DNA of 41,451 bases, taken from the NCBI GenBank assembly GCA_021794995.1, contig JAJYPY010000007.1, positions 1-41,451 on the forward strand. Direction: 5' to 3'. Positions 17,566-27,990 of this stretch are shown here, piece by piece; position 1 is the first letter of the stretch, and every line of letters begins with the position of its first letter. The notes under the pieces were generated by a model. The model saw only the letters and a list, made by a program, of their open reading frames with translations, did not search any database and was not told where the DNA came from. Source of the DNA: Actinomycetes bacterium (GTDB taxonomy: Bacteria; Actinomycetota; Acidimicrobiia; Acidimicrobiales; RAAP-2). A program made the translations under genes and the position numbers.

Positions 17566-17887
17566 CGCGCCATCCTTTCATCGGTGCCATGGGGTGTTCC
17601 TGCGTACAACGGACGCATGGCCAACGCACCATGTGCTCCGAGGTGGTGTGAGACAGAAGTATGGGGGTAGTAGTGCTGTGGATTGTGGACGGCGCCGGGT
17701 CGTCGCTGGTCGGGTGCGTTCGGGCGTCCCCCGGACCGCGCGGCGAACCGAGAGGACGAAGGCCGCGCGACCCCTAGCGGGCGACACCCTGTGGACGGGA
17801 GGGGGACGCGTCCCCAGGATCCACCGAGGCCGTCCACAGGAGTCACGATGGGGCGCGTCACGATGGGGCGCGTCACGGTGGTGCCGG
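17566..17887. other. putative oriC (dnaA-dnaN intergenic) with degenerate DnaA boxes
   Basis: TGTGGATTG 17677-17685, TGTGGACGG 17684-17692 and 17790-17798, reverse CCGTCCACA 17830-17838, between dnaA and dnaN. Confidence 0.7.
17842..17877. repeat. 15-bp direct repeat (GTCACGATGGGGCGC x2 plus partial) at the dnaA-proximal edge of oriC
   Basis: Exact copies at 17842-17856 and 17857-17871, partial 17872-17877. Confidence 0.9.
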
Positions 17888-19277: not shown

Positions 19278-19309
19278 TCGTCCACAGCATGGTCCACAGG
19301 TGTGGAACA
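19278..19309. promoter_or_regulatory. cluster of three DnaA-box-like sequences upstream of / at the dnaA start
   Basis: TCGTCCACA 19278-19286, TGGTCCACA 19290-19298, TGTGGAACA 19301-19309. Confidence 0.5.
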
Positions 19310-23920: not shown

Positions 23921-23950
23921 TGTTTCACCGTCATGTTACACGTGGAACGC
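23921..23950. repeat. 30-bp parS-like element, copy 1
   Basis: TGTTTCACCGTCATGTTACACGTGGAACGC; 23934-23949 matches parS TGTTTCACGTGAAACA at 13/16. Confidence 0.7.
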
Positions 23951-24010: not shown

Positions 24011-24040
24011 TGTTTCACCGTTAGGTTACACGTGAAACGC
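24011..24040. repeat. 30-bp parS-like element, copy 2
   Basis: TGTTTCACCGTTAGGTTACACGTGAAACGC; 27/30 identical to copy 1, start exactly 90 bp later; 24024-24039 matches parS at 13/16. Confidence 0.7.
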
Positions 24041-24317: not shown

Positions 24318-25502
24318 GTGAGCCCGCCGGAGAAGGCCGAGCAGAATGCACCGCCCCCCGAGGGTGAAGAGGACGACCAGGTGACAGATGCCCAGCTGAG
24401 GATCGATAGTCCTCCCATCGCCACGGCGCAGGGAATGGAACCTGCGGAACGGCCAGACGACTTGGAGCATGGTGCCGACGCCGATGATCCCCTGTATGAG
24501 GACAGGGCCCTCGGCGAGGCCGAGGCGCCGGTCGTCGAGGAAGTTCCCCGCATGGTCGAGGAGGCTCCAGTGGTTGTGGAGGAGGCTCCACAGGTGCTCG
24601 AGGAAGCTCCACAGGTGGTCGAGGGCGCACCGCCGCCGCGCACCGCAGGCGCACGGGGGGAGCGCGCGGTGGAGCGCGAGCTGGTGGCGCGCTCAGACGG
24701 GAGAGGCGTGGCTACCCCGCGCCCACTGCCCCGTGTGGTCGCTGTCGCCAACCAAAAGGGTGGTGTGGGGAAGACGACCACGACCGTGAACCTCGGGGCT
24801 GCCCTTGCCGACCTCGGCTATCGCGTCCTCGTGATCGACCTGGACCCCCAGGGGAACGCCACGACGGGGCTCGGTATTGATGCACGGAGCTTCGAACACT
24901 CGATGTACGACGTCATCATGCGCGAGACGCCGCTCGAGGACGCGATCGAGCCGACGAGTGTGCGGAACCTGTTCGTCGCGCCGGCCACGATCGACCTCGC
25001 CGGTGTCGAGATCGAACTGGTGCCCGCGTTCAGCCGTGAGCTCCGGCTGCGCAGGGCGATCGAGACGGTCGTGGACGACTTCGACTTCGTACTGATCGAC
25101 TGTCCGCCTTCGCTCGGGCTGATCACGATCAACGGCCTTGCCGCTGCGAGCGAGGTGCTGGTCCCCATCCAGTGTGAGTACTATGCGCTCGAGGGGCTCG
25201 GGCAGCTTCTCAGGAACGTCCATCTCGTCGCCTCCAACCTCAACGAGCGCCTCGAAGTCAGCGCGATCGTCCTGACCATGTACGACGCCCGCACCCGGCT
25301 GGCCCTCGAAGTCGCGGACGATGTCCGCGAGCACTTCGGCGAGAAGGTCTGCCGGATCGTGATCCCGCGCACGATCCGCCTATCCGAGGCGCCCTCATTT
25401 GGTCAACCGATTACGGTGTTCGACCCCTCGTCTCGTGGAGCGGTCGCGTACAGGGAGCTTGCGAAGGAGGTGAGCAATGGCGCGCCGAAGCGGACTGGGT
25501 AA
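24318..25502 (+). CDS. parA: chromosome-partitioning ATPase ParA (Soj)
   Basis: VVAVANQKGGVGKTTTTVNLGAALADLGYRVLVIDLDPQGNATTGLG, LIDCPPSLGLITINGLAAA; acidic repetitive N-terminal extension. Start chosen at GTG 24318, uncertain (ORF opens 24216). Confidence 0.95.
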   Translation: MSPPEKAEQNAPPPEGEEDDQVTDAQLRIDSPPIATAQGMEPAERPDDLEHGADADDPLYEDRALGEAEAPVVEEVPRMVEEAPVVVEEAPQVLEEAPQVVEGAPPPRTAGARGERAVERELVARSDGRGVATPRPLPRVVAVANQKGGVGKTTTTVNLGAALADLGYRVLVIDLDPQGNATTGLGIDARSFEHSMYDVIMRETPLEDAIEPTSVRNLFVAPATIDLAGVEIELVPAFSRELRLRRAIETVVDDFDFVLIDCPPSLGLITINGLAAASEVLVPIQCEYYALEGLGQLLRNVHLVASNLNERLEVSAIVLTMYDARTRLALEVADDVREHFGEKVCRIVIPRTIRLSEAPSFGQPITVFDPSSRGAVAYRELAKEVSNGAPKRTG

Positions 25503-26469
25503 GGGGCTGGGCGCCCTGATCCCGACGGAGGTCGCCGGTGCCGGCGCGCAGGGGGGTGCGCTGCGTGAGGTTCCGATCTCGAGCATCCGCCCCAACACCC
25601 TGCAGCCGCGGACCCATTTCGACGAAGAGTCGATGTCGTCTCTCGCGGCGTCCATCCGGGAGCTGGGCGTTCTCCAACCGGTCCTGGTGCGCGCGCTCGA
25701 GGAGGGAGTGGAGGGGTATGAGCTGATCGCCGGGGAGCGGCGGTGGCGCGCCGCGCGCCGCGCCGGACTCCAGACGATCCCGGTGCTTGTCAGGGACGTC
25801 AACGGCGACGCGCACAGCCTCGAGCAGGCGCTCGTGGAGAATCTCCACCGGGAGGATCTCGGACCGCTCGAAGAGGCGGCCGCGTATCAGCAGCTCATCG
25901 ATGACTTCGGTCTCACCCACGAGCAGGTTGCGACCCGCGTGGGCAAGAGCCGCGCCACGGTGACGAACACGCTGCGGCTGCTGCAGCTTCCCGCAGGCGT
26001 GCAGCGCGCCCTCGCGGACGGCTCGATCTCCGCCGGCCACGCCAGAGCATTGTTGGGGACCCCAGACCGGCAGCTCCAAGAGCAGCTCGTTGGACGGATC
26101 GTCGGTGAAGGGCTCACCGTGCGGCAGGTCGAGGATGCCGTGCGCGGTGGCGACGTCGCGTCTGGCGCGTTGGGGGTGGCGACGGGTCCCGGCACGGGCG
26201 CCGACGCGAGCGGCGGGCGCGTCGGCGCGGATCATGCCGGTACTACCAGCGGTACGACTCGTCGTGTCCCGACGCGACGCCTCCCTGAGCCGGGCGTACT
26301 GGAGCTCGAAGAGCTGCTTTCGACGCATCTCAATACCCGGGTCAAGGTGGAACTTCACAACCGCCGGGGCCGTGTCCTTGTCGAGTTCGCCACCCTCGAG
26401 GATCTCGAGCGCATCTACCGGGCGATGGTCGAAGGACCCCACACGTCCACCCCTCCGCCCACGCCGTAG
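25477..26469 (+). CDS. parB: chromosome-partitioning protein ParB
   Basis: RRSGLGKGLGALIP, ISSIRPNTLQPRTHFDEESMSSLAASIRELGVLQPVLVR, GERRWRAARRAGL, RVGKSRATVTNTLRLLQLP; SD AAGGAGGTGA before ATG. Confidence 0.97.
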   Translation: MARRSGLGKGLGALIPTEVAGAGAQGGALREVPISSIRPNTLQPRTHFDEESMSSLAASIRELGVLQPVLVRALEEGVEGYELIAGERRWRAARRAGLQTIPVLVRDVNGDAHSLEQALVENLHREDLGPLEEAAAYQQLIDDFGLTHEQVATRVGKSRATVTNTLRLLQLPAGVQRALADGSISAGHARALLGTPDRQLQEQLVGRIVGEGLTVRQVEDAVRGGDVASGALGVATGPGTGADASGGRVGADHAGTTSGTTRRVPTRRLPEPGVLELEELLSTHLNTRVKVELHNRRGRVLVEFATLEDLERIYRAMVEGPHTSTPPPTP

Positions 26470-26555
26470 CGACCGGTGATGCCGGTCCCTGCACAGGGTG
26501 GGGTCTCGACCGGCACGTGACCTCGAGGGCGGAACCCTCAACCCGCACTACACGG

Positions 26556-26588
26556 ATATCCACAACCTGTGCATGACGTTGTGGATTG
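26556..26588. promoter_or_regulatory. inverted pair of DnaA boxes in the parB/amidase convergent gap
   Basis: ATATCCACA (26556-26564, 8/9 to TTATCCACA) facing TGTGGATTG (26580-26588); perfect 9-bp arms ATCCACAAC (26558-26566) / GTTGTGGAT (26578-26586). Confidence 0.6.
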
Positions 26589-26659
26589 TTCTGCTCGCCC
26601 TCAAGTACAGCATGCGGTCAGCGCAGCGCCCGTGTGGACGACGCCCGCGTGCCCCCTGG

Positions 26660-27655
26660 TCACTCCCAAGGCCCCCCGGCCCACGACGACAGCGCGTCGG
26701 CGAGCGCGTCGGCGAGCGCGGAACCGTGCTCGACGGCGAGGGACGCGGGGCCGACTTCGACGGTCACGGCGGGCATCCGCGTCTCGCGCAGGATCGTGAG
26801 CGACATCCCATGCGCCCCGAGGTCGGGCACCCCGAGGGCTCGCGGGACCGTTCGCTGGATCGCCTCGGCGAGCAAGCGGCCCCCGACGGACTCGTCGCGG
26901 TACCCCGAGTAGAAGGCGGCCAGCGCGCCGCGGCGCTCCGGCTCGAGTCGCAGGGCGAGGTAGGCCTCCGCGCCTGCGCTGTTCGCCTGCTGCGCCTGGA
27001 CGGAGTCATCGGGGTGATGAAGGGTCGTGACGGTGGCGCCGTAGGTGAGCAGTCGCCTGCGCAACGCGGCTACCGGGGGGGCCAGTCCCCCGGGCTCGCC
27101 GATCGCGATGTGGCGGCCCGCGAGCGTGGGCGGCGCCTGGCGGAGCAGCTCCCTCGCTCGTACGGTCGACACGAGGTGGACCGGCGACGGGGCGCGCGCG
27201 GCCACGCGGCGAAGCGCGCGCAACGTCTCGCTGCCAAGAATGCCGTCGGCCGGCAGCGCCGCGTTCTCTTGGAACTCACGGAGCGCGATCGCGGTGGCGT
27301 CGCCGAAGATGCCGTCGACCCGCCCGGTGTCGAAGCCGAGTGCGCAGATCCGTTGTTGGAGCTCGGCGACGTCGTCCCCGCGCATCATCGGCGTCCGGCG
27401 GTACAAGAAGCGGTCACCGAGCCGATACCCGGCTTCGACGAGGGTCTGCCACGTCTGCGCGCCGAAGAGCCCGTCCACGCGCAGTCCCCGACTCCGCTGA
27501 AACGCCTCGACGGCGGCGCGGGTCGCGCGACCGAAGACGCCACTCGGATCGGTGATCGGGCCGAACCCCAACGCAAGGAGGCGATCCTGGACGTCTGCAA
27601 CCGCATCGCCCTCGTCGCCCTCGCAGAGCGGGAGCGCGCCGCGCCGAGGGGTCAA
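26660..27655 (-). CDS. N-acetylmuramoyl-L-alanine amidase-like protein with two N-terminal peptidoglycan-binding domains (CwlM-like)
   Basis: Two PG_binding_1-type repeats (VADVQDRLLALGFGPITDPSGVFGRATRAAVEAFQRSRGL; VAELQQRICALGFDTGRVDGIFGDATAIALREFQ) plus amidase_3-like domain (ILRETRMPAVTVEVG); downstream of trxA. Start uncertain (TTG 27655). Confidence 0.8.
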   Translation of the reverse strand: MTPRRGALPLCEGDEGDAVADVQDRLLALGFGPITDPSGVFGRATRAAVEAFQRSRGLRVDGLFGAQTWQTLVEAGYRLGDRFLYRRTPMMRGDDVAELQQRICALGFDTGRVDGIFGDATAIALREFQENAALPADGILGSETLRALRRVAARAPSPVHLVSTVRARELLRQAPPTLAGRHIAIGEPGGLAPPVAALRRRLLTYGATVTTLHHPDDSVQAQQANSAGAEAYLALRLEPERRGALAAFYSGYRDESVGGRLLAEAIQRTVPRALGVPDLGAHGMSLTILRETRMPAVTVEVGPASLAVEHGSALADALADALSSWAGGPWE

Positions 27656-27663
27656 CCCGTCGT

Positions 27664-27990
27664 CTACAGGTAGCCGGACAGCTCCTGGACGAGCTGCCCC
27701 TTCGGCTTCGCCCCGATCAGGCGCACCTTGGGCTCCCCGTCCTTGAACAGAATCAGGGTGGGAATGCTCATCACGTCGTAGCGGCGCGTCACGTCCAGGT
27801 TCTCGTCGATGTTGAGCTTCGCCACCTGGAGCTTGCCTGCCTGCTCGCCCGCGATCTCCTCGAGCACCGGCGCGATCATCTTGCACGGCCCGCACCATTC
27901 GGCCCAGAAGTCGACGAGCACCGGCACCTCCGACGCCTTGACATGCTCGTCAAACGTACTGTCGTCCAACGTCACGATCTTCTCGCTCAT
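27664..27990 (-). CDS. trxA: thioredoxin
   Basis: VLVDFWAEWCGPCKMIAPVLEEIA. Confidence 0.97.
   Translation of the reverse strand: MSEKIVTLDDSTFDEHVKASEVPVLVDFWAEWCGPCKMIAPVLEEIAGEQAGKLQVAKLNIDENLDVTRRYDVMSIPTLILFKDGEPKVRLIGAKPKGQLVQELSGYL

Follow-up and report, generated by a model that had tools for sequence, protein, structure and literature searches.

The window analysed here, a stretch of 41,451 nucleotides, is part of a 2.64-Mb draft genome of a member of Acidimicrobiales; among public genomes, its nearest named relatives are metagenome bins of Acidimicrobiales or Acidimicrobiaceae. Its minus strand carries gyrA, gyrB, recF, dnaN and dnaA, followed on the plus strand by rpmH, yidC, jag, rsmG, parA and parB; past parB, the genes for a CwlM-like amidase, thioredoxin and thioredoxin reductase lie on the minus strand again. 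This gene order around parAB and dnaA is kept in relatives. In the DnaA encoded in the window, the DNA-binding domain retains its GGRDHTTV motif. Upstream of parA lie two parS-like sites 90 bp apart, GTTACACGTGGAAC (23935–23948) and GTTACACGTGAAAC (24025–24038). Sites resembling this pair were found in 63 of 71 relatives, and a T-to-A variant of the consensus parS site appears to be in use in the genus.

The parB gene (25477–26469, plus strand; TIGR00180, 183 bits) and the gene for a CwlM-like peptidoglycan-binding protein, a peptidoglycan amidase (26660–27898, minus strand), converge on a gap of 190 bp that holds a DnaA-box site. The GC content at the site is 50–54%, compared with 64–80% on either side. 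The first-pass annotation had described in this convergent gap after parB an inverted repeat with two DnaA boxes, a neighbouring hairpin GAGGG-CGGAA-CCCTC (26525–26539) and a dip in GC content, and all of these features were confirmed when the sequence was checked. The inverted pair of boxes is therefore real, but a third box in the middle, TGTGCATGA, had been missed.

With this box included, the element has a 9-3-9-3-9 layout and reads ATATCCACA-ACC-TGTGCATGA-CGT-TGTGGATTG. Box I (ATATCCACA, 26556–26564) lies on the plus strand and matches TTATCCACA at 8 of 9 positions. Boxes II (TGTGCATGA, 26568–26576) and III (TGTGGATTG, 26580–26588) lie on the minus strand, on which they read TCATGCACA and CAATCCACA, respectively. 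The inverted repeat is formed by ATCCACAAC (26558–26566) and GTTGTGGAT (26578–26586), exact reverse complements with 11 bp between them. Single 8/9 matches to TTATCCACA are not above chance in the window, where two were seen and 1.0 was expected. It is the arrangement that exceeds chance and not the single box, since the exact inverted pair is unique within the 2.64-Mb assembly and is conserved.

To estimate how often the triad occurs in relatives, which were mostly metagenome bins, we used an unbiased set of parB downstream gaps from loci fetched by ParB similarity alone, with duplicates removed. Loci fetched by the TCCACA pattern were excluded from the rate estimates because they are positive by construction. 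The triad score required a II–III gap of 3 and a I–II gap of 2 or 3 and counted six core letters per box, with a maximum of 18. At most two core mismatches were found in 62 of the 82 in-order gaps, of which 32 scored 18, five scored 17 and 25 scored 16. The 42 outgroup gaps came from 13 genomes of a sister order within the class and 29 genomes of another class; none held such a triad, and their best score was 13 of 18. Fisher's test for 62/82 versus 0/42 gives a p-value of about 8e-18, which is not exact because the sequences share ancestry. Some relatives are without a recognisable triad: five of the 82 in-order gaps scored 13 or less, and the parB gap of one closed genome (G026) contains no clear triad. 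The conservation check that the first-pass annotation had proposed for the parB downstream regions of relatives thus leaves its claim standing, with the pair kept as part of a triad, and this conservation strongly supports a dedicated, predicted DnaA site near parAB.

The spacing of the boxes is conserved as well. When triads with at most one core mismatch were counted on a grid of spacings in 100 in-order gaps (some of them pattern-fetched loci), the cell with both gaps at 3 bp held a triad in 53 gaps and the other cells in 0–8, and the reversed-sequence control yielded 0 triads in every cell. Within the order, at least 14 families have an exact-core triad after parB. The TCCACA core of box I is nearly invariant at the same place in relatives. 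The orientation of box II is flipped in four relatives (L025, L192, L198 and L199), in which both 3-bp gaps are retained, and another relative (L062) carries the near-perfect boxes TTATCCACA-GGA-TGTGCATAA-AGC-TGTGGATAA. The flanks of the triad are free to vary with one exception, a short conserved block next to box I (26538–26552, plus strand) that contains T-18, A-15, T-7 and A-4, counted from the first base of that box. This block holds 0.9–1.2 bits per position against a background of 0–0.3, and its T..A steps recur at 10–11 bp and keep that phase into box I. It may perhaps represent two degenerate low-affinity DnaA sites or the site of another protein.

In five AT-rich relatives (L072, L078, L085, L089 and L101) the triad's place in the parB downstream gap is taken by TTATCCCCA-N3-TGGGGAAAA, a sequence with the look of an intrinsic terminator. 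Such terminator-like gaps passed a loose triad score, and the stricter core count was adopted for this reason.

We then searched whole genomes with the pattern I-N(1-8)-II-N3-III. Of 148 genomes from the order, 90 contained the module, as did 124 of 297 from the phylum, while reversed-pattern controls were nearly empty. Nearly all inspected hits were located either at the 5′ end of dnaA or upstream of it, with a I–II gap of 2 or 3 bp, or after parB, with a gap of 3 bp. The window's genome contains exactly two modules, the one after parB and a second triad at the 5′ end of dnaA (19278–19309, minus strand), where four TCCACA-core boxes are present (19222+, 19278+, 19290+ and 19301-). Across Actinomycetota, a triad of the dnaA type lies at dnaA or upstream of it; it probably serves as the autoregulatory operator of this gene. 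The parB triad shares with it the orientation pattern and the II–III gap of 3 bp. The dnaA copy differs in its I–II gap, which is mostly 2 bp (as in the window), in its middle box, TGTGGA instead of TGTGCA, and in its promoter or leader location. Since the same module recurs at dnaA, DnaA would be the natural ligand of the parB triad, and the parB copy is unusual because it is the regular copy that has no promoter.

A few triads were observed at other positions. Two lie just upstream of dnaE-like genes for DNA polymerase III alpha, identified by eye from the translation (L211:777-804 in G034 and L224:2073-2099 in G185), which suggests DnaA control of dnaE in some lineages. Another (L218:1527-1553 in G046) is situated between thiolase-like and Ppx/GppA-like genes, away from both dnaA and parB.

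The statement of the first-pass annotation that the best boxes of the window are not at dnaA–dnaN is correct for the E. coli consensus only, as the dnaA–dnaN gap contains four TCCACA-core boxes (17677-, 17684-, 17790- and 17830+). In this gap the DnaA-trio TAGTAG (17668–17673) adjoins TGTGGATTGTGGACGG, and together with CAATCCACA (17677–17685) and CCGTCCACA (17684–17692) it makes up a predicted origin unwinding element (17668–17692, minus strand). A box followed by a DnaA-trio is the layout of the basal unwinding system (PMC8287927). At least two tandem DnaA-trios were present in the dnaA–dnaN gaps of 47 of 50 relatives, compared with 2 of 55 cases near the parB triad, and no DnaA-trio was found at the parB triad of the window. 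The position of the GC-skew switch mostly points the same way: the cumulative minimum falls within about 0.2 kb of dnaA–dnaN in two relatives (G072 and G110) and the window also prefers this gap, whereas G145 is neutral, G138 leans the opposite way and the skew of the closed genome G026 is noisy and did not place the origin. With the trios at dnaA–dnaN and the skew mostly there, oriC is very probably the dnaA–dnaN gap, about 9 kb from the parB triad, and the triad itself is very probably not an origin. A secondary origin at the triad, one of the roles suggested at first, was rejected on the DnaA-trio evidence and, less firmly, on the GC skew.

The inverted arrangement of the boxes could also reflect an RNA hairpin or an unspecific palindrome, and the strand is indeed able to fold (−14.8 kcal/mol, z −2.5). 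In 48 distinct triads, however, arm pairing is high only within the invariant box cores and drops to 31–69% at pairs 1–3, 11 and 12, just outside the cores, where the changes are one-sided. An A-T/G-C exchange was seen at pair 10 alone and fits equally well a lineage's preferred base after the DnaA box. Moreover, the supposed loop is the conserved box II, which flips intact. A search for intrinsic terminators, defined as a GC-rich stem with a T-run, returned none within 26400–26700, and the small hairpin at 26525–26539 folds weakly (z −1.0) and is likewise without a T-run. As covariation between the arms is absent beyond the box cores and no terminator is present, the triad is not a hairpin; the terminator reading was rejected on these grounds, and an RNA family was rejected after Rfam gave no match in the window. 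This leaves a hairpin or unspecific palindrome as a highly improbable explanation.

The oriC-proximal DnaA-box cluster of S. coelicolor was reportedly described by Smulczyk-Krawczyszyn et al. in 2006. Like this cluster and the B. subtilis DBCs, which lie in the origin region or at other chromosomal positions, the parB triad consists of several DnaA boxes clustered outside oriC and without an unwinding element. Unlike them, it is a single fixed module with exact spacing order-wide, always after parB. E. coli datA likewise binds DnaA without being an origin and sits in the origin-proximal region of the chromosome; DnaA binding is predicted for the triad as well. However, the essential boxes of datA share one direction (PMC5742627) and an IHF site is needed, whereas the boxes of the triad are opposed (+,−,−). 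The datA-like role that had been proposed is thus not supported in the strict sense.

Based on the sequence, we propose with moderate confidence that the parB triad is an auxiliary DnaA-binding control element, that is, an origin-proximal titration or control cluster and not an origin. Its three boxes, one facing two in tandem with all gaps at 3 bp, would hold a small cooperative DnaA complex after parB; E. coli DnaA in vivo prefers box pairs 2–3 bp apart (PMC11317965). At about 9 kb from oriC the triad would be replicated very soon after initiation, so that its doubling would titrate DnaA and help to prevent re-initiation. There is precedent for such a role in Bacillus and Streptomyces, whose oriC-proximal DnaA-box clusters have been proposed to act by titration. 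DnaA-box clusters outside oriC are reported to restrain initiation in B. subtilis and S. coelicolor (PMC5742627; PMC5295017), with the B. subtilis effect being strong only upon removal of six clusters (PMC5295017). For the dnaA promoter region of E. coli, the estimated capacity is only 3–4 titrated DnaA molecules (PMC5835720). As three boxes make a small sink, one triad that acted purely by titration may have a weak effect, and the fixed geometry exceeds what a titration sink needs. DnaA binding at the triad, its cooperativity and its effect on initiation timing are what we infer by analogy with these systems.

The geometry largely matches that of the E. coli DARS cores, DARS1 being TTATCCACT-N5-TGTGGATAA-N3-TGTGTATTA and DARS2 TTATCCCAG-N5-TGTGGATAA-N3-GGTGTAAGA. 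We read these box positions off the MG1655 sequence, guided by the statement on orientation and equal spacing in PMC5742627. In both DARSs box I is opposed to boxes II and III (PMC5742627), and the parB triad has the same three-box core with the same opposed orientation and a II–III gap of 3 bp. A DARS-like element, also suggested by the first-pass annotation, would use the opposed pair and the tandem box to assemble ADP-DnaA head-to-head, promote ADP release and regenerate ATP-DnaA. The conserved flank of box I favours this function, as does the survival of the one-against-two arrangement as a mirror image after box II has flipped. The suggestion holds for orientation and II–III spacing but fails for the I–II gap, which is 3 and not 5 bp; exact-core triads with 5/3 spacing occur in only 2 of 100 gaps. 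The triad further differs in its strong outer boxes and in having no known IHF/Fis flank, and the E. coli DARSs are far from oriC. Two chromosomal DARSs were found among 52 similarly arranged E. coli box pairs (PMC5835720), which makes the box arrangement alone weak evidence, and the recurrence of the triad at dnaA points to a general DnaA operator. We therefore regard DARS-like activity as unlikely. A variant of this idea, which we find quite doubtful, sees the parB triad as a switch of the DnaA nucleotide state. It would be a DARS-like (or inactivating) sequence that evolved independently in Acidimicrobiales, close to the origin and within the ParB-parS domain, where ParB occupancy would gate DnaA recharging and link segregation to the next initiation.

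The neighbourhood of the triad allows two further explanations. In an extended or bipartite origin, DnaA on the parB triad would meet the DnaA bound at oriC or at the dnaA 5′ triad through a DNA loop inside the parS-ParB domain, which would tie initiation to segregation. The triad, the parS-like sites before parA (23935 and 24025) and oriC all lie within 9 kb in a conserved gene order, looped structures are formed by the bipartite origin of B. subtilis (PMC5295017), and domain I of actinomycete DnaA is a head-to-head dimer (PMC13270200). Nevertheless, a distance of about 9 kb is large compared with known bipartite origins, the parB triad carries no DnaA-trio and the contact is a prediction, so this arrangement appears improbable. 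Alternatively, DnaA on the inverted boxes could act as a bidirectional roadblock terminator that stops the transcription arriving from parB on one side and cwlM on the other. At E. coli asnC, RNA polymerase is blocked by DnaA/box complexes (Schaefer and Messer, as described in PMC10950094), and the triad is always in a convergent gap, which in the window is without an intrinsic terminator. Intrinsic-terminator-like sites were found in 4 of 55 triad-bearing gaps and in 15 of 45 other gaps, a difference that fits the roadblock and counts against titration, although genomic GC and phylogeny confound the comparison. On the other hand, the distance from the parB stop to the triad varies from a few to more than 200 bp across relatives, and the gaps of the sister order and the other class are without any triad. 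Overall, a roadblock is rather unlikely to be the function of the element.

No paper combining DnaA, oriC and Acidimicrobiia turned up in a search of open-access literature. To our knowledge, only a few model bacteria have DnaA-controlling sites outside oriC whose function is known. A conserved three-box element of fixed spacing and with fixed neighbours, in a largely uncultured order, is a precise and testable target, and it lets one ask whether Actinomycetota use DnaA titration or recharging and whether such control is linked to the parABS locus.
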